Below, in pieces: positions 1 through 39,996 of a stretch of 64,000 nucleotides of DNA. Each line of letters opens with the position of its first letter. Positions within the stretch are counted from its first letter, which is position 1. A model generated the notes under the pieces. That model was not told the DNA's origin. It worked only from the letters and a program-made list of their open reading frames with translations, and ran no database searches. Source of the DNA: Pseudomonadota bacterium (GTDB lineage: Bacteria > Desulfobacterota > Binatia > Binatales > Binataceae); the NCBI GenBank assembly GCA_021323675.1, contig JAJPKP010000016.1, positions 1 to 64,000 of the forward strand. The letters are read 5' to 3'. The position numbers and the translations under genes are program-made.

Positions 1-563
1 CCGTTCTCGGCCTCAGTGAGAGTTTGGGATGGATCGCGGGGCCCGTCGGCGGGGCGGTGGCTCTGGCGGTCGATCTCGCTCTTTTCTTTGACGACCTCTT
101 TGGCGGCGGTTCCAGCATCCCCTACCAGTTACTCTACCCCGGCCATAGTCCGGAGGGACTGGTGAGGGTCGGATGGCAAGATTCCGTGGATCAGAATCCT
201 GTCTACCACACTATTGACGATGCCGTCAGAGGCGCGTCGCGTGCCGCTCTGGCACTCTCCCGAAAGACGGGAAACGAATCGTTCGGGACAGTCGTGCGCG
301 CAGGGACAGGATACACATACACCAATCCAGTTGACGTCGGCAGCCCATATGGGGGACGGGTTTCCGTCCCAGGTAGCGCTGTCGCGACTTATCACACACA
401 TCCAGCCACATGCGAAGGTGGCGTACCGGAGCTGCTTTCGCCGCGAGACAGAGATTTTGTTGCGCTGGATCCGCTACACAGACCCCTTTACTACATTACA
501 CCGCCAGGCGAGATCTACAGATACTCCGGCGGTGACGGTCCGCCGGTTGCTCTGCAACGGTGA
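1..563 (+). CDS. Rhs/polymorphic toxin C-terminal fragment, cassette A: hydrophobic pre-toxin segment, SIPY..HSPEGL junction motif, DUF4329-like C-terminal domain with JAMM-like HTH...SPRD motif (5' end outside window)
   Basis: Frame is open to the window start (VLGLSESLGWIAGPVGG...); GGGSSIPYQLLYPGHSPEGLVRVGWQDSVDQ aligns with three further copies in the window; YTYTNPV...VPGSAVATYHTHP...SPRDRD resembles DUF4329 domains of Rhs proteins. Confidence 0.7.
   Translation, partial: VLGLSESLGWIAGPVGGAVALAVDLALFFDDLFGGGSSIPYQLLYPGHSPEGLVRVGWQDSVDQNPVYHTIDDAVRGASRAALALSRKTGNESFGTVVRAGTGYTYTNPVDVGSPYGGRVSVPGSAVATYHTHPATCEGGVPELLSPRDRDFVALDPLHRPLYYITPPGEIYRYSGGDGPPVALQR
102..197 (+). repeat. junction motif copy 1 (SIPY..HSPEGL..VDQ)
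   Basis: Translated motif conserved with 2545-2638, 4106-4255 and 5174-5323. Confidence 0.65.
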
Positions 564-575
564 GGAGAGAATGAA

Positions 576-1073
576 GTGCGTATGCGATTGAAACGACCAG
601 CGACTGCGGTAACGATACTCGTGACCATCTTTTCACTGGCCTGGATCAGCACTCTGGCAGCTACAGACGCCAAGGGCTCTCGACGAGAAGCGGTCTCTCT
701 GGTGTCGCTGATAGCCGAACCGCAACAATATGATGGGAAAGCCGTGTTGGTGACTGGTTATGCTCTGCTTGGATTCGAACAAAATGAGCTTTTCCTGAGC
801 CCGTATGACGCACAGGAATTCAATACGTTGAATGCGATTTCGCTCGACTTTGGTAAAACCGATGGAGCTCTGCGGAGGCAATGGACCGCCCTCTTCGATC
901 ACGAAACAGTAGATATCGAAGCGACCTTCTACTATCCGAAAGAGGCTGGTGCTAAGGCCGGCAGCTCCTACTGGACAGGATATCCCAACGGATGGTTGGT
1001 GAACATCACGAGTATGCGACTGCACGACTTTCATCCTCGAATTCCGACTCAACCACCCCCGCACACACAGTAG
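576..1073 (+). CDS. putative cognate immunity protein of cassette A (N-terminal signal/TM segment)
   Basis: ORF immediately downstream of the toxin cassette; hydrophobic N-terminus TAVTILVTIFSLAWISTLA; function inferred from position only. Confidence 0.5.
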   Translation: MRMRLKRPATAVTILVTIFSLAWISTLAATDAKGSRREAVSLVSLIAEPQQYDGKAVLVTGYALLGFEQNELFLSPYDAQEFNTLNAISLDFGKTDGALRRQWTALFDHETVDIEATFYYPKEAGAKAGSSYWTGYPNGWLVNITSMRLHDFHPRIPTQPPPHTQ

Positions 1074-1250
1074 AGGCAATAGGCATAGAGTGTACCCACC
1101 GATCACTGTGCAGAGAGGCTCGAAACAAGGCGCCAGAAAACCTAGATGTCCGTACAATCCTTCAGAATGCTCTGGTTATTCGACAAATACGAATCCTGCG
1201 TACAGAGGATGACAAGTGGTAAGGTATGCGGATGATGATCGCACCACGAC

Positions 1251-1475
1251 GTGGGTGGATCGATGATCGGGCTGTTCGATGCGTACAACCGGGCGATCAC
1301 CACACAATATACGTACGATCCTACCAGAGTGGTTAGAGCGAGCCGCGCACCGAACTCGTATCCGTACCTGTATCAGCGGATGGAGTACGATGTGTGGACG
1401 GGGCTGTACCACTCGATGTCGAGTACCCGGCGATGTCACTCGGAGAGTCGAGATTGCCACACAGGATCTATTTGA
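1251..1475 (+). pseudogene. Rhs core remnant
   Basis: GLFDAYNRAITTQYTYDPTRVVRASRAPNSYPYLYQRMEYDVWTGLYHS matches the end-of-core pattern TYDPFG...GMEYDxxTGLYHARYY but lacks the RYYSP..RFLSEDP continuation. Confidence 0.55.
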
Positions 1476-1480
1476 GGCAT

Positions 1481-1903
1481 ATGACGTGTCTTCAACATCG
1501 CGCATTTTGGGCCGTTCGGAGTGGGCTGATAGCCTTGCTCATTCTATTTCTGCTGCAGTTACTGCCGATTCCCGTGATACCTCAGGCATATTTCGATTCG
1601 GCCCCAATCGTGGCTGTCGCCGAGTTCGTAGTAAGACACCAGTGGAGTTACGTAGCAACAATTGTCGGAGCCGCGGGCATTTGGCCAATTTCCCAGTATC
1701 GTAGCGCTCGCTCATCTGCGGATCGTTGGATACTGGCCGGGTCTGTGGTGTGTGCCTTCCTGTTTTTTGTGTTTAGCATCCTTTCTTGGGTCCATCCTGG
1801 CCTGAGCTCTAGCGTTAATCTACTCTCAAAGATCAACGCGATCGCGTTTGCCGTCTTGTTAAGTGCTTCATTCTGTAGAGTTCGTCGACTTCGAAGAGAG
1901 TAA
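1481..1903 (+). CDS. polytopic membrane protein, possible orphan immunity protein
   Basis: ATG at 1481; several hydrophobic helices (LIALLILFLLQLLPIPVIP, WILAGSVVCAFLFFVFSILSW); sits between toxin cassettes. Confidence 0.4.
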   Translation: MTCLQHRAFWAVRSGLIALLILFLLQLLPIPVIPQAYFDSAPIVAVAEFVVRHQWSYVATIVGAAGIWPISQYRSARSSADRWILAGSVVCAFLFFVFSILSWVHPGLSSSVNLLSKINAIAFAVLLSASFCRVRRLRRE

Positions 1904-2108
1904 TTGGTACCCGTTCTGTGAATCGCGCACGCTTGGCTCCCGCTTGTCGATCAACTTCAACATCGGTGGCGTCCTGCTTCCGCGGGCTCGCACCGGGCGT
2001 TTCGTATCTCAAGTGTTTGTGGTTCCCGGGCGCTTGGACTATCTGGTCATCGCCGCCGATGTTGTCCTTGAGAAACTGCAAGCCGTGCGTACGTGACAGA
2101 GAGATTGA

Positions 2109-2423
2109 TTGGAAACACGGGAAGGAAGCGGTATCTTCACTTGTATTTCCGCAACCGTGCACACTCCCGGACGAAACATCTCCTTGGCGCTTCGACGAAC
2201 GCCTGCGATGCTACTGCTGACGCTGCTGTACGTGTGGCAACGCTCCACAGTAGCCTGCGTGGTAGCGCATGCCTTTGAAGATATCGGCGTACCATGCATC
2301 GCTCGCTCCCAGCCTGCCTTGCTTCGCTGGGTATTCGTGCCGCGTTACGTCTGGCTGCCGCTGCTGATGGTCGGGGGTGCAAATGCGTTGGCGCAATATT
2401 ATGCCGCAAGACGCTCCGCATAG
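2109..2423 (+). CDS. hydrophobic protein fragment, possibly a membrane protease (CPBP-like) or immunity remnant
   Basis: MLLLTLLYVWQRSTVACVVAHAFEDIGVP resembles the last conserved helix of CPBP proteins; otherwise weak. Confidence 0.25.
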   Translation: METREGSGIFTCISATVHTPGRNISLALRRTPAMLLLTLLYVWQRSTVACVVAHAFEDIGVPCIARSQPALLRWVFVPRYVWLPLLMVGGANALAQYYAARRSA

Positions 2424-2980
2424 CGGTGCGCCGGTGCGAATGCATCGCACTATGCCCGGGAACATCGTGGCTCGGATGGGTCGCGGGGCTGGCAACTGTC
2501 TTGTTGGAGAAGGTGCTCGGCTTCGATCCGTTCGGCGGTCCCTTTGGCGGCGGCCACAGCATCCCCTGGGAAATGCACGCCCCAGCGCACAGCCCCGACG
2601 GATTGAAGCGTGCCGGCCAGACCGATCAGGTGAACCAAGCATCCTCCTCCCAGACAATTTCGGATACGCAGCCTCTAACGAAACCTCAGCCTGCGCCCCC
2701 GAGTGCATGCTCGCAATATGATAGCGAATGTACGCAGAGTGCAGGGTCGGACAAGTACTCTTGTAGCGCCGGCAACTGCTGCCGCGCGTTTGGTAATAGC
2801 GGTCCTGCAAACTGTGTTCGAGGGTGCCTGCTCGAATTCGAAAAGAGATGCTTTCAGAGTCCGAATAGTGGAGCGTGCAGAACGGAGGCCCACATATTTT
2901 GCTACATGACCTGCGGAGCGCTGACTCATCTAGCGGACTTCTCTGCCGCCTTCTCACCGTCGTGTAGCTCGCTTTACTGA
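2294..2980 (+). CDS. orphan Rhs-type toxin tip, cassette B: pre-toxin segment, SIPWEMHAPAHSPDGL junction, Cys-rich C-terminal domain
   Basis: GGGHSIPWEMHAPAHSPDGLKRAGQTDQVNQ repeat; about 12 Cys in the last ~90 residues; no Rhs core upstream. The true 5' limit of homology is nearer 2460 than the ORF start. Confidence 0.6.
   Translation: MHRSLPACLASLGIRAALRLAAAADGRGCKCVGAILCRKTLRIAVRRCECIALCPGTSWLGWVAGLATVLLEKVLGFDPFGGPFGGGHSIPWEMHAPAHSPDGLKRAGQTDQVNQASSSQTISDTQPLTKPQPAPPSACSQYDSECTQSAGSDKYSCSAGNCCRAFGNSGPANCVRGCLLEFEKRCFQSPNSGACRTEAHIFCYMTCGALTHLADFSAAFSPSCSSLY
2545..2638 (+). repeat. junction motif copy 2 (SIPW..HAPAHSPDGL..TDQVNQ)
   Basis: Translated motif repeat. Confidence 0.7.
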
Positions 2981-2998
2981 AACTCCGGGACGGCTGGT

Positions 2999-3550
2999 AT
3001 GGAAAAGATTGCCCTGATTCCCCTGCATTTTTGGCTCCTCTTCGCGATACCGATAATAGGAAGTGCCATAACTTATCGCTTGGTTCGACACAGGCGGTTC
3101 GAGCTTGTGGTCGCGCTCCTGATTCCACCCTTCGTAGGCGAGCTGGTGTTTGTCTACGCGACTCTGCAAGGTGGCGCCCAGATTTCGGCGTTCGCCACAG
3201 CATCCCTTTGGCGTGCCGTGCTCTATCTGTATCCTTTCGCATTGATTCCGCTAGGGCTATGGTCGCCGTTCGTCGGTCTCCTTGCGTGGCTGGTGCTCGA
3301 GCGGCGCATCCCACAGGATCCTCGAACAGTTGTGAACTATCTGCCCCTCGCCGCTGTCCTGGGCGCAATCGTCGGAGCGGGTTTGCTGGGCGGATTCTAC
3401 GGCTCGCTTCGCATACTCGATCTAAGCGACCAGAATCCGGCTCTCTGGGCGCTGATTGGTGCAGCCTCAGGGCTGACTGGAGGTGTCATTGTTGGGCTCT
3501 TTTTCTGCCTCGAGAGCAGGCGTCGCGGCGTAAGGCATGCTGCCATTTAG
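2999..3550 (+). CDS. polytopic membrane protein, putative immunity of cassette B
   Basis: ATG at 2999 shortly after the cassette B stop; about five hydrophobic helices. Confidence 0.5.
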   Translation: MEKIALIPLHFWLLFAIPIIGSAITYRLVRHRRFELVVALLIPPFVGELVFVYATLQGGAQISAFATASLWRAVLYLYPFALIPLGLWSPFVGLLAWLVLERRIPQDPRTVVNYLPLAAVLGAIVGAGLLGGFYGSLRILDLSDQNPALWALIGAASGLTGGVIVGLFFCLESRRRGVRHAAI

Positions 3551-3722
3551 ACCCAGCCGACACTGATCGAACCGAACAGGTGCGACACCATGAGCAATTC
3601 TTCGCCCAACCGCAGCGTTCGGGCTTGAGGATATCCTCATCGACAACATCGCTTGGCTGCTGCGGACACTTCCACTCTTTGCAATCCCAGGGTCCGGCAA
3701 TTACCGTCTGCAGCCGATTTTC

Positions 3723-4559
3723 GTGGAGAATCCGGCCGAACTGGGGGTTAAAGCCATCGACAGCGAAAGCAATTTCATCCAAGACGCGGTCGGTCCGGAG
3801 GCCTGCACCTTCAACGAGCTGGTTATCGCCGTCCCCACGCAGTGGGCAGCCCTGCAGTTGACCCGGCCGGCTTCGGAGGTGGGAGCGACTTCGAGCCGAA
3901 GCGCGGGCAATCCGAGTTCGCCGACAGATATTCCGGGGTTCAGCGGGGGCGGGGGATTTATGTGGACCTTCAACAACGTAAGCGATCAGGCCTGTTATTC
4001 GATCGCTGCGGGAATGGGAGCGGCGGGGTTGACCGCTGGGGCTGCCGAGTTGGCCACCGTTCTCGGCATCGACATTGGAATCAAAATGTCGATGGCTGGT
4101 TCGGTGGGCGTCGTGGTAGGGGGACTCACCGAACTAGGTTTTCTTATCGCGGATCTGCTCAGCGGCGGCCCCAGCATCCCCTGGCAAGTGCATGCCCCAG
4201 CGCACAGCCCGGAAGGATTGAGCGACGCCGGCCAAACCGATCAGGTCGACCAGAAGCTGGTCTCAGAATTCCGCGAGCCAGATGTCTCGCTAAACGGCGG
4301 CTGTCAGAGCGGGGGAACCTTCACGCCTGTCTCGTTGACGGAAGCTCTCGGCACACGCAAGGAAGTATCTTGCGGGTGGCTAGACCGCAGCATCTGCGCC
4401 GCAGAATGTGCCGCTCAAGGCAAGGGCCTGAAACGATGCTACTATATTCAAGATTTCGGATTCATAGGCAGGAAGGGCCGCTTGGGATTACTGGGCTATA
4501 AGCAATTGGGCGGGCGGCAGTGCGAGTGTAGCGAGCAGCCGCCCTGTGGATGTCGATAG
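3723..4559 (+). CDS. orphan Rhs-type toxin tip, cassette C: pre-toxin TM region, SIPWQVHAPAHSPEGL junction, Cys-rich C-terminal domain
   Basis: LGIDIGIKMSMAGSVGVVVGGLTELGFLIADLLSGGPSIPWQVHAPAHSPEGLSDAGQTDQVDQK; same frame is open back to 3594 without an obvious start. Confidence 0.6.
   Translation: MENPAELGVKAIDSESNFIQDAVGPEACTFNELVIAVPTQWAALQLTRPASEVGATSSRSAGNPSSPTDIPGFSGGGGFMWTFNNVSDQACYSIAAGMGAAGLTAGAAELATVLGIDIGIKMSMAGSVGVVVGGLTELGFLIADLLSGGPSIPWQVHAPAHSPEGLSDAGQTDQVDQKLVSEFREPDVSLNGGCQSGGTFTPVSLTEALGTRKEVSCGWLDRSICAAECAAQGKGLKRCYYIQDFGFIGRKGRLGLLGYKQLGGRQCECSEQPPCGCR
4106..4255 (+). repeat. junction motif copy 3 with nucleotide-level repeat
   Basis: About 9 mismatches, no indels, over 150 bp against 5174-5323. 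Confidence 0.85.
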
Positions 4560-5042
4560 CACGGACAATTGTAAGAAGAAGATGTGCCAGTGTCATAACC
4601 TTGATGGCACGTATTCATCGCGCGAGCCGCTTTATCGGTTCGATGAGGTTTCGAGGCCTGGACGCGTACGACGCGGTCGGGAGCCCGAATATGAGAGAGT
4701 TCAAAGTCGGCGAATTGTACTTCATGACGTGGTATGCGGATCAGGAGTCTCAGGATTCGCAAGACGGACTTTTCCTCGTTCCTGACCCCATCCTTTTTTG
4801 TCGAGAGAAATCTCGACACAGGACTCGAGGGCGAACGATGGTACTTTCAAGACACGAGGTCCTACTGCAAGTACGGTAGCTATCCTATCGATCACGTCGA
4901 AGGGCTAGCCGAAGACGAACTTGTCGGGCAGCTGGTTTGCCTGCGCGAACAAGACCTCTTTCAGATCGTGGATTGTGAAGGGCTCGCTAAGGTCGTCCTT
5001 GAATGCGCGCAGCGAAGACGCGCCGCGGGGGCAAAAATGTGA
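4550..5042 (+). pseudogene. putative immunity gene of cassette C, frameshifted at a T6 run near 4794-4799
   Basis: Frame +2 reads ...MREFKVGELYFMTWYADQESQDSQDGLFLVPDPILF, then frame +3 continues ...FFVERNLDTGLEGERWYFQDTRSYCKYGSYPIDHVEGL...; removing one T joins them. Confidence 0.5.
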
Positions 5043-5095
5043 GGGCGAACCACAGACCGACACCCGGAGAATTGTCGATTGACGTCTGAAACGCG

Positions 5096-5645
5096 GTGTT
5101 TGCAAGGTTCGGGCTGAAGCGCAAGCGCGCGCGGCCTCGACGTCGGGATTACCTCGTCGATGGCGGGTCCGGCGGGCGTCGTGGTAGGGGGACTCACCTA
5201 ACTAGGTTTTCTTATCGCGGACCTTCTCAGCGGCGGCCCCAGCATCCCCTGGGAAATGCACGCCCCAGCGCACAGCCCGGAAGGATTGAACGACGCCGGC
5301 CAGACCGATCAGGTGGACCAGAAATCAAGAGGTTTGGACGGAGGGGGGCCGGTACGCGTTGAGTTCCAGTTAGCAGCGCCGGGAGTATTGGCTGTTTCAG
5401 AAGACCACGTTTGGAAGGAACCGGGACCTTCGGGCCGCTATACCAATCCTTGGACCTCCGGGCGGAGGTTGAAGCCGGAGAGGGAAAAAGTTACGCCACT
5501 GAATCGTTTCGAACCGTGGGAACCGCCTCTGCCGTGGTGGCTTCATATGGAGCCTATGCCTTGGGTCATTCTTCCAAAGGCGTTTTGCGATACTTACAAC
5601 AGCGCGGGAGTGCGGCCCCCTTCCTGGTATCCCCAAACAGAATGA
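5096..5645 (+). pseudogene. orphan Rhs-type toxin tip, cassette D (in-frame stop in pre-toxin region)
   Basis: 5174-5323 is about 94% identical to 4106-4255; GAA(Glu) of cassette C is TAA at 5199-5201 in the frame leading to SIPWEMHAPAHSPEGLNDAGQTDQVDQK. Confidence 0.6.
5174..5323 (+). repeat. junction motif copy 4 with nucleotide-level repeat
   Basis: About 9 mismatches, no indels, over 150 bp against 4106-4255. Confidence 0.85.
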
Positions 5646-35630: not shown

Positions 35631-35716
35631 TGGTGCCGAGGGCGGGACTTGAACCCGCATGTGGTTGCCCACGGTGGATTTTGAGTCCACTGCGTCTGCC
35701 GTTTCGCCACCTCGGC
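35631..35716 (-). tRNA. tRNA-Leu (anticodon CAA), CCA encoded
   Basis: Reverse complement GCCGAGGTGGCGAAACGGCAGACGCAGTGGACTCAAAATCCACCGTGGGCAACCACATGCGGGTTCAAGTCCCGCCCTCGGCACCA folds as a class II tRNA. Confidence 0.95.
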
Positions 35717-35821
35717 ACTTCCGGGAGATAGCGGCAACCCCTAGTTTTAGCGGCGGGGAACGAGGCGGGCAACCGCGCCGCTGTGGCGGTCAGCCGGAGA
35801 CCCGCGATGCGAGGTTCAGGA
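35677..35821. repeat. left direct repeat of Rhs-tip island (145 bp)
   Basis: Matches 39852-39996 with one mismatch (35744 G vs 39919 A), constant offset 4175. Confidence 0.97.
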
Positions 35822-37330
35822 CTCACCGCGATGACCAACGCGGCACTGAGCTACGCGCCGGACGGGCAACGTTCGATCCTTGGGGTCACCAACACAAATA
35901 CTACGGTAACGACGACCTACACCTACGATGCCCTTTCCCAGCGGCTCACGCTCTTGAACTTTGCTTCCAGCCAGAATCCCTCGCTCGGCACTCTGAGCTA
36001 CACCTACGACGCCGACGGTCGGGTCATCACCAAGGGTGGAACCCTCGCCAACGTCAACCTGCCGCCGGTTTCGCCACAGGCCGCAACGTACGCGAGCACC
36101 AACCAGATTCAGACCTGAACCAACGGGATGTCACCCTCTGTCGATGCCAACGAGGCGATCACCACAGACCCGGCCACCGCCCTAACCTACAAGTATACTT
36201 CCCGCGATGAGATCTGGAAGGCAGGAAGAGATCAATACACCTACGACGTAAGCGGGAGAAGAGAGACTGCCGCTGGCGTCAGCTATCTTTACAATGGACA
36301 CACGCCGGTTTGGATGTCGTCCGGATCAGGTATGAACATCGCGGCGCTCCCCGATTCCAACGAAATCCTCAACCTTAACGGAGTAGTGCCTATCCACGAT
36401 GCGCTCGGTACGGTCCTTGGAGGGGTCAATTCAAGCGGGACTTTTGCGTTCCAAAACACCTACGATCCGTTCGGTGGCTTCACTACCAGTGGTAGCCCAC
36501 CTTCGGGATACGGGCAGGTGTACGGGATGGCCGGAATCGAGTACGACTCAACTTCGCTCTATCACGCAGGGCCACGGTACTACAGCCCAGTCTTACAGCG
36601 GTTCCTGTCGGAGGATCCGGTACGCGGCAAGGCCAACATGTATCTGTACGCTACGAATAACCCGGTCACAGGAAGTGACATATCCGGCCTGCAGGGGTTC
36701 TGCCCCAATGGCGACTGCGCCAGTGGAGCTGGCGGGCAGGAAAATGCACCAACCGACTCGACGGGTCTCATTGGTCTGGTCGCCAGCATAATACAAGACA
36801 TCCTTGGGGCAGCCAGCGGCGGAAATCCTGCACCCAACTACCAACGGTCTCAGAACGCTATGGCCTTTGGTCGATTCAACCGCACCGGGGGAATTGACCG
36901 GGCTAATGTCTACGCTCAGTCCGGTGGAATCGTCGAGGTTCAGGACGAAGGAGACGACGCAGAGGAAGAGGAAAAGGCACAAGAGGAAGAAGAAAGTGAA
37001 GATGAGGGCATAATAGCTGGGGTTTTGGGCGGGCTCATCGACAGTACGGAAGAGGACGCGCCTGGAATCGTCGCAAAAAATGGCACGAGGATCAGCGGCT
37101 TCACTAAGCACGGGGTCGATCGCGCGATTGGAGACATGGCCGAAAGAGCTGGGACAAAACCTGACGCAATTTTAGATGCGCTGAAAAACCCGGTTCGAAT
37201 TCAGAGCGGTGTGAATCCCAAAGGACCCTTCGAGGTTTTTACGGGCCAGAATGCTCGCGTGATTGTGAATCCTGCGAGTGGTAAGATTATAAGTGTAAAT
37301 CCGCTGTCCGCCGCCGGTGCGGTAAAGTGA
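35822..37330 (+). pseudogene. 5'-truncated Rhs core plus toxin tip E, with in-frame TGA at 36116-36118
   Basis: YD repeats (TYTYDALSQRLTLL, SYTYDADGRVI, QYTYDVSGRRE); end-of-core GIEYDSTSLYHAGPRYYSPVLQRFLSEDPVRGKANMYLYATNNPVTGSDISGLQG; both halves share one frame. Confidence 0.85.
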
Positions 37331-37339
37331 GCGCTACCT

Positions 37340-37615
37340 ATGGAAGAATCCTCTCATGAGTTCAAAGTTTCGACCGAAGAGTTGAACTTTCTGCAGCGGG
37401 TTACAGCTGGCGATCGAACCTTCTCACGTTTACTTAGCGAGCAAGCACTCAGGCGTGGCGACAAAATTTCTGTGCGGATGGGTCTTGCGGAAGCGGAGCA
37501 ACTCAGAGATCGGCTGACACTGTGGCTGGCGCAATTTGGTTTCAATGACGACGATTCTCCAAACATAGCAGGAGAAATGTGCGAGGGTCTCATCGATCGC
37601 TTTTATGTCCGCTGA
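37340..37615 (+). CDS. putative immunity protein for tip E
   Basis: Small acidic protein 9 bp after the tip; L..RLTLWLAQFGF..D...G...EGLIDRFYV pattern. Confidence 0.6.
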   Translation: MEESSHEFKVSTEELNFLQRVTAGDRTFSRLLSEQALRRGDKISVRMGLAEAEQLRDRLTLWLAQFGFNDDDSPNIAGEMCEGLIDRFYVR

Positions 37616-37675: not shown

Positions 37676-37873
37676 ATGGCGATAAAGACTGACGGTGTGG
37701 AAGTGAGCAGGACGGATCGAGCGAAGCTGGAAGCGTGGGTGCGATCGCAAACCATCGCTCACAGCCTGGCGGTCAGGGCTCAGATCGTGCTCGGTAGCGT
37801 GCAGAGCGAGAGTATCCGGGACTTGACGGACCGACTGGGAGTGAGTCAGCCCACGGTCTGCTTGTGGCGTTAG
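37676..37873 (+). pseudogene. IS630-family transposase N-terminal (HTH) fragment
   Basis: DRAKLEAWVRSQTIAHSLAVRAQIVLGSVQSESIRDLTDRLGVSQPTVCLWR; ends where tip F homology begins. Confidence 0.7.
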
Positions 37874-38475
37874 GCGACTGTGCCGGAGGGACGGGCGGGC
37901 AGGAGAACACTCCCGGGGACTCTTACGGACTGATAGGCCTGGTGGCTAGCATCATCCAAGACATCTTCGGTAGCGGCAGCGGCGGCAATCCTGCCCCCGA
38001 CTATCAACGTGCACAGAACAAGATGGGCTTCGGGAGATTCAACGACACGGCAGGAATCTCAAGTAACACTCTGGTCCTGACCCAGAGCGGCGATCCGAAC
38101 GGTGATACTTTATACGGCATCGCCAGCTACTACGAGCCCACGGGCAACCTGACTCGCAGCGGGCTCCCATACAATGACAGGAATGAGCTGATTGCGGCGA
38201 TGCATCCAGAAGAGGTGGGGTTTCACGGAAAGTTTCCATACGGCACTGAGGCAGATGTTACCTATGTCCCGCCGGGCTCGAAAATCGAGCGAACCGTCAC
38301 CGTTAGGGTAATCGACAAAGGGGGCCCGGCGCTGAAGAACCGCCTCATCGACTTGTCGCCAGGCGCCTTCAAATTTTTGACACAGCAAGACCTCACTCCA
38401 GGAATCAAGCCGAAGGTTGGTCTTATATTCGTCAAGGTAGAGATTCCAGCTAGACCGACCCCACCGTTGCAGTGA
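37864..38475 (+). CDS. orphan Rhs-type toxin tip F with RlpA-like double-psi β-barrel domain
   Basis: GDCAGGTGGQENTPGDSYGLIGLVASIIQDIFGSGSGGNPAPDYQRAQNKMGFGRFN repeats tip E junction; GIASYYEPTGNLTRSGLPYNDRNELIAAMHPE...YGT...VRVIDKGGP...IDLSPGAF resembles RlpA DPBB. Confidence 0.75.
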   Translation: MALGDCAGGTGGQENTPGDSYGLIGLVASIIQDIFGSGSGGNPAPDYQRAQNKMGFGRFNDTAGISSNTLVLTQSGDPNGDTLYGIASYYEPTGNLTRSGLPYNDRNELIAAMHPEEVGFHGKFPYGTEADVTYVPPGSKIERTVTVRVIDKGGPALKNRLIDLSPGAFKFLTQQDLTPGIKPKVGLIFVKVEIPARPTPPLQ

Positions 38476-38969
38476 TGGCAGGATCTATGGGAAGTCGTAA
38501 GATAATACTCGTAGCTGTTGTCTTCATACTGGTCGCAAGCGGAGCAGTTGCTGCGGGCAATCCCATTTCTTTTCGCCGGGGAAATATCACATATGCCTTG
38601 TTCGATGTTTCGGTAAGAAAGCTGCCTCTCCTCAAAGGCGATCGAATTGAGGGATTCGAGTGCGATGTCCTGGGTACCGTCGAACGCATCGACATACCGT
38701 TCGAGTGGAAGGTGATCGTCGACAACCCCACCGGCGACCATACCAAGGTCATGGCAGAAGCGAGCGTGGGAGCAGCTGCGTTTCCAGATGATACGAAATA
38801 TTTTCGGAGATTCGCGCGCGTGGGAAAGATGTCCATCTCCGGTGAAACGCCGCATTTCGACATGAGCATAACCCTTCGGATCTCCGACAAGGACGACAAG
38901 GTAAGGAAAGCTAAACTGTCGCTCCGAGCGTTGGACTTGACTCCGGCATCATCCGCAATAGGGGATTAG
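38472..38969 (+). CDS. putative exported immunity protein for tip F
   Basis: Overlaps tip F stop; signal-peptide-like IILVAVVFILVASGAVAAG. Confidence 0.6.
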   Translation: MMAGSMGSRKIILVAVVFILVASGAVAAGNPISFRRGNITYALFDVSVRKLPLLKGDRIEGFECDVLGTVERIDIPFEWKVIVDNPTGDHTKVMAEASVGAAAFPDDTKYFRRFARVGKMSISGETPHFDMSITLRISDKDDKVRKAKLSLRALDLTPASSAIGD

Positions 38970-39032: not shown

Positions 39033-39410
39033 GTGCCATTCTGTACCTGCAGAACGTACGTACGGATGTTCTTGACGATCGGGCTCCTCAATTGGTTGCT
39101 CATAATTCCTCCGCAGGCCGAGCGAGCCGGAGTCCCGCTCGTCGGTCCAGACACTTCGGCGCCCCTAAATCAGTGGCAAGCGATGCGTGCGCCGGGCAAA
39201 AATGGACCAGGAACGTTCCCAACAAAGGCCGATTGCGAAAACTACCGTTCGAAGATGATCGATGATGCAAAGATTCGGCTGTTAGTGGACGCGCCCGAGA
39301 ATGTCGAAGCGCTACCTTCTGACACTGGTAGAGCCAAATGGACTTTTGGCCTGGGGGCACTCAACGCCAAGTGCATTGAGAGGAGCGATCCTCGCTTGAA
39401 GTCTAATTAA
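39033..39410 (+). CDS. small exported hypothetical protein
   Basis: Hydrophobic N-terminus; PLNQWQAM...FPTKADCENYR pattern. Confidence 0.45.
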   Translation: MPFCTCRTYVRMFLTIGLLNWLLIIPPQAERAGVPLVGPDTSAPLNQWQAMRAPGKNGPGTFPTKADCENYRSKMIDDAKIRLLVDAPENVEALPSDTGRAKWTFGLGALNAKCIERSDPRLKSN

Positions 39411-39851: not shown

Positions 39852-39996
39852 GATTTTGAGTCCACTGCGTCTGCCGTTTCGCCACCTCGGCACTTCCGGG
39901 AGATAGCGGCAACCCCTAATTTTAGCGGCGGGGAACGAGGCGGGCAACCGCGCCGCTGTGGCGGTCAGCCGGAGACCCGCGATGCGAGGTTCAGGA
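39852..39996. repeat. right direct repeat of Rhs-tip island (145 bp); includes tRNA-Leu 5'-half remnant 39852-39891
   Basis: Matches 35677-35821 with one mismatch. Confidence 0.97.

Follow-up and report, generated by a model that had tools for sequence, protein, structure and literature searches.

A probable orphan Rhs toxin/immunity cassette lies displaced in the window, by which we mean the whole 64,000-nucleotide (nt) stretch of DNA analyzed, and it is probably aimed at the glycan strands of peptidoglycan. Its candidate toxin tip has the fold of an RlpA-type double-psi β-barrel (DPBB) and follows an Rhs linker, and the adjoining gene encodes an exported protein that is probably the immunity partner. 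The features of the locus are collected in Table 1.

Table 1. Features of the probable orphan Rhs cassette and its surroundings (positions are those of the window)
Feature	Positions	Strand	Basis or remark
Left copy of 145-nt direct repeat	35677..35821	.	Holds 5' half of tRNA-Leu; flanks Rhs segment
Upstream Rhs fragment: core end, same linker, different tip	35822..37330	+	TIGR03696, E 7.8e-16
Small cytosolic-type ORF after upstream tip, candidate immunity gene for that tip	37340..37615	+	Position only
Transposase-like ORF fragment with HTH_23, cut off at Rhs linker start	37676..37873	+	HTH_23, E 3.1e-5, below cut-off
Rhs post-core linker of orphan tip (GDCAGGTGGQENTPGDSYGLIGLVASIIQDIF...)	37873..38091	+	DNA identity to two other Rhs linkers
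RlpA-type DPBB, candidate toxin tip	38095..38475, including stop codon	+	PF03330, TIGR00413, AlphaFold2/PDB, homologue on Rhs core (L082)
Exported candidate immunity protein	38472..38969	+	Signal peptide; family members beside G042 Rhs-DPBB tip and G277 GH25 muramidase
Second small ORF, signal-like N terminus, same segment	39033..39410	+	No Pfam/NCBIfam match
Right copy of 145-nt direct repeat	39852..39996	.	99% identical to left copy

By ORF inspection, the frame of the tip is open from 37798 to a stop codon at 38473-38475, and this stretch (37798-38475, + strand) codes for an Rhs post-core linker followed by the DPBB. The tip matched PF03330 (DPBB_1) of Pfam with an E value of 3.6e-5 and 24.3 bits, missing the curated cut-off of 28.8, and TIGR00413 (rlpA) of TIGRFAM with an E value of 4.5e-5, also below the cut-off. 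Structure prediction, which the initial annotation had proposed as a check, gave an AlphaFold2 model (pLDDT, 73; pTM, 0.73) for which a fold search returned five PDB matches at E ≤ 0.001. All five are solved DPBBs, the best at 2.5e-6; the structural matches include the hub DPBB of phage A-1(L), which was the best, a Streptomyces papain inhibitor, loosenin, and expansins. Over the aligned barrel, the tip is 39 to 44% identical to 11 RlpA proteins of the class. The fold is therefore that of an RlpA-type DPBB, as the initial annotation had claimed, with sequence scores above chance yet under curated cut-offs; the motifs and the two ORFs that it described are also present in the sequence. Close relatives of the tip were found in none of the 85k genome contigs, viral contigs, or plasmids searched, and a search of phages yielded only distant DPBBs of the hub or lipoprotein type.

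The tip shares with the RlpA septal ring lytic transglycosylases (PF03330/TIGR00413; PDB 4avr, PA4485) the DPBB fold and the TxSG, His-xxx-P-x-G-T, xxD(R/K)G, and IDLS motifs. Unlike RlpA, it lacks the Glu of the TASGE motif, has an 8-residue insert before the His, and carries GGPAL and IDLSPxAF; GGPAL and IDL[ST]PxAF are common to this tip and a homologous tip in another genus (genome G042, described below) and are missing from the aligned RlpAs of the class. A further difference is its placement: the N terminus is the Rhs linker, with no lipoprotein export signal, second domain, or SPOR domain.

At the position of the TASGE Glu there is a Leu in the window tip (TRSGL) and an Ala in the G042 tip. 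The window tip keeps the His (HGKFPYGT aligns with HQTLPLGT of RlpA), which the G042 tip has lost; VIDK aligns with INDR, and both Asp columns (VIDK and LIDL) are conserved in the window tip. The corresponding residues of Pseudomonas aeruginosa RlpA are reportedly E120, H131, and D157, said to come from work by Jorgenson and colleagues in 2014. The initial annotation was right that the Glu is missing, a Leu following TRSG, but its suggestion that catalysis may differ for this reason was not borne out. Glu is also missing from 6 of the 11 aligned class RlpAs, which have Leu, Ala, Val, or Thr instead, and because about half of these proteins lack it, its absence is not diagnostic for the tip. 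After this alignment we dropped Glu loss as a mark of new catalysis. Among the housekeeping RlpAs of the class (L005-L023), Ala, Val, Leu, or Thr often takes the place of the Glu, and two of these proteins have no His.

The DNA of the linker (37873-38057) is 72% identical to 36710-36894, where the upstream Rhs fragment has its linker, and 78% identical to the linker in an Rhs ORF of another contig of the genome, C10. The in-frame codon differences between the two linkers in the window are 23 synonymous versus 14 nonsynonymous, which indicates that the linker has been selected as coding sequence. One type of linker thus precedes three different tips in the genome (the window tip, the upstream fragment, and C10), which is the pattern of Rhs genes. 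This common linker, together with the homologous tip of G042, which shares its reading frame with an Rhs core, supports the Rhs origin of the tip.

At its present site the tip is an orphan without a core, a convincing start, or an export route. The Rhs core is absent from its frame, which from 37798 holds the linker and tip only. Rhs-like DNA begins at ∼37873, and GTG 37864 is an unconvincing start because it sits in the junction between the transposase fragment and the Rhs sequence. An intact Rhs gene with this type of linker was not found in the genome, an assembly of 87 contigs that may be incomplete. Lacking core, start, and export route, the tip probably stays silent unless recombination joins it to a full Rhs gene. 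The initial reading of the tip as a toxin tip stands for its RlpA-type DPBB, its Rhs origin, and its exported partner, but has to be modified in that the present tip is an orphan and its missing Glu is not distinctive.

The locus has the properties of orphan rhs cassettes: a displaced tip, a linked candidate immunity gene, homology to Rhs genes, and no start or export signals. In these respects it resembles the orphan rhs-CT/rhsI cassettes of Salmonella enterica LT2, likewise core-less and displaced, with a linked immunity gene and homology for recombination, in which recombination between the main gene and the orphan activates the toxin (Koskiniemi et al. 2014, PMC3967940). In Salmonella the toxin is another domain, of demonstrated activity, whereas the window has a DPBB tip whose partner is exported, and an intact main gene with its linker was not found.

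The neighboring gene has three possible starts, GTG 38472, which overlaps the stop codon of the tip as GTGA, ATG 38475, and ATG 38487, which has AGGA just upstream. The genes overlap if either of the first two is used and nearly so if the third is. The claim of an overlapping next gene with a signal peptide is thus correct, the overlap holding for the starts GTG 38472 and ATG 38475. The N terminus, RKIILVAVVFILVASGAVAA|GNP, is a plain Sec signal peptide with no lipobox. The AlphaFold2 model of this protein is weak (pLDDT, 62) and had no PDB match at E ≤ 0.001; the fold search gave weak cohesin/Ig-like matches, which we take no further than "β-sandwich." The protein matched no family in Pfam, NCBIfam, PADLOC, or PHROGs, and a five-member profile of it matched PDB sequences at chance level only.

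The pair occurs a second time. Two or three Rhs-core modules spaced ∼1.1 to 2.5 kb apart are frequent in relatives of the same family. In G042, one of these relatives but of another genus, a single 455-amino-acid frame (contig C5, L082) runs from the end of an Rhs core through a different linker into a DPBB tip, which scored 29.7 bits against PF03330, above the Pfam cut-off of 28.8. At ATGGTGA the stop codon of this frame overlaps with the start of a gene for an exported protein of 160 amino acids, a homologue of the neighbor in the window. Identity over the alignment is 30% between the two tips and 23 to 25% between the two partners, which suggests that the pair either has been kept together over a long divergence or was assembled twice. 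The known Rhs-DPBB tips number two, those of the window and G042, both in draft genomes, a count that leaves out long-frame DPBB matches in G027, G029, G032, G095, G112, G117, and G395.

The exported family is rare, with about eight copies in 150 genomes of the class, so a member is unlikely to stand by chance directly behind another Rhs-DPBB tip; on the assumption of roughly 600,000 genes, we put the chance that one directly follows a given tip at ∼1e-5. G042 has three copies, all of them situated among Rhs fragments and one frameshifted. In G019, G020, G078, G393, and G468 the members stand alone, no Rhs core lying within the 3 to 18 kb examined, and the family is therefore not dedicated to Rhs immunity. 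In a distant genome, G277, a GH25 muramidase gene (PF01183, E 1.8e-41) is ATGA-coupled to an exported protein of the same family (contig C4, L136 710-1932). The family is thus linked to two kinds of enzyme that act on peptidoglycan glycan strands, which fits an inhibitor role. A signal peptide alone is no evidence of immunity, because in a genome of the same family as the window's (L081) an exported gene follows another Rhs tip too. The homologous recurrence of the pair, which backs the pairing made in the initial annotation, is the best evidence that the neighbor may be an immunity protein.

The Rhs-like segment begins exactly at the end of the left copy of a 145-nt repeat (35821), and the segment between the two copies is 4.0 kb long. 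No integrase was recognized in it. It is unusual for such a repeat to hold the 5' half of the tRNA-Leu, since duplications at tRNA sites normally contain the 3' half; homologous recombination between the copies could remove the segment. The upstream Rhs fragment has lost its 5' end, its homology to the C10 Rhs beginning abruptly at 35821, and is interrupted by a single in-frame stop at 36116-36118. The C-terminal tip that it carries (HGVDRAI...ARVIVNPASGKIISVNP; 36128-37615 with the small ORF downstream) differs from the DPBB tip and looks nuclease-like by eye, and that small ORF matched no Pfam/NCBIfam family. The ORF at 39033-39410 is perhaps an orphan immunity gene. The transposase-like fragment has one copy in the genome. 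Elsewhere in the window, 103-5323 holds four copies of a 91-nt repeat (60 to 91% identical to the reference copy) and a 203-nt pair, situated in ORFs without Pfam matches. Elsewhere in the genome data (G000, contig C74, L123 5065-9999), a very large RHS_repeat protein lies downstream of large proteins that by eye resemble parts of a contractile injection system cluster.

We propose that the orphan tip would acquire a core by recombining, through the common linker, with a full-length Rhs gene, and that the Rhs-fused DPBB would then be delivered into a rival's periplasm. There it would bind, and probably cleave, the glycan strands of peptidoglycan; the two conserved Asp residues could provide carboxylate catalysis of the kind found in the broader DPBB/expansin/MltA fold group. 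The β-sandwich partner, exported by Sec, would stay in the producer's periplasm and block the groove of the barrel.

It is quite possible, if short of probable, that the DPBB tip is instead a noncatalytic glycan binder or wall loosener of the expansin kind, not a lytic transglycosylase, and that the partner protects by masking. The RlpA Glu is missing in both tips and the His in one, and expansins and loosenin are among the best structural neighbors that are small domains. However, both Asp columns are conserved, and half of the class's RlpAs, which are presumably functional, also lack the Glu. A protease-inhibitor-like DPBB, as in the Streptomyces papain inhibitor, or a target other than peptidoglycan, is very unlikely: a weak match to NF041659 (E 0.019) and the presence of 5ntb among the structural matches point that way, but RlpA and phage-hub DPBBs score better and the partner family is linked to a GH25 muramidase.

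The pair might also be decaying debris without a present function, left over from a broken Rhs locus that is trapped between a transposase fragment and a tRNA segment present in duplicate. The tip without core or start, the abutting transposase fragment, and the 5'-truncated upstream Rhs fragment with its in-frame stop are what such decay would leave. Nevertheless, both ORFs are intact and the architecture of their junction is preserved, orphan cassettes can serve as functional reserves (PMC3967940), and a standing immunity gene may still protect; we consider this explanation rather unlikely. That the neighbor is an unrelated exported gene that came to follow the tip by accident is very unlikely, for although most of its relatives are solitary genes, a family member again stands behind the DPBB tip of G042, joined to it by the same overlap.

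RlpA-type DPBB domains occur as housekeeping septal enzymes and as parts of phage hubs. Periplasm-acting Rhs/T6SS peptidoglycan effectors with exported immunity (Tae/Tge types) likewise combine an attack on the wall with protection in the periplasm, and their toxin folds and immunity families are unrelated to those of the DPBB tip pair. The baseplate hub of cyanophage A-1(L) (PDB 8kea), the source of the best structural match, carries its DPBB on a phage delivery structure; that domain differs in being part of the virion hub, and we know of no immunity gene for it. In the open-licence literature we found no description of an RlpA-type DPBB as an Rhs toxin; the two papers that mention both RlpA and Rhs deal with other topics, judging by their titles and abstracts, and the first 300,000 characters of a 2012 survey of polymorphic toxins name neither RlpA nor DPBB. 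As far as these sources go, the orphan Rhs cassette is already known and a DPBB tip with this kind of exported partner was not found described.

The Rhs-DPBB tip and its exported partner make a good candidate for a cell-wall toxin, complete with a protective partner, that has not been described before. More tentatively, and with some doubt, the tip and the "SxPxxxLxxxERI" β-sandwich family may form a new class of Rhs toxin and immunity protein, the family being a general periplasmic inhibitor of enzymes that cleave glycan strands. Acting on both RlpA-like DPBBs and a GH25 muramidase, the family would then have a role comparable to that of lysozyme inhibitors. If confirmed, the pair would add a class of cell-wall toxin and, for the first time, assign a role to this exported family, which has no Pfam entry, and the family's link to a GH25 muramidase makes the wider inhibitor role directly testable.
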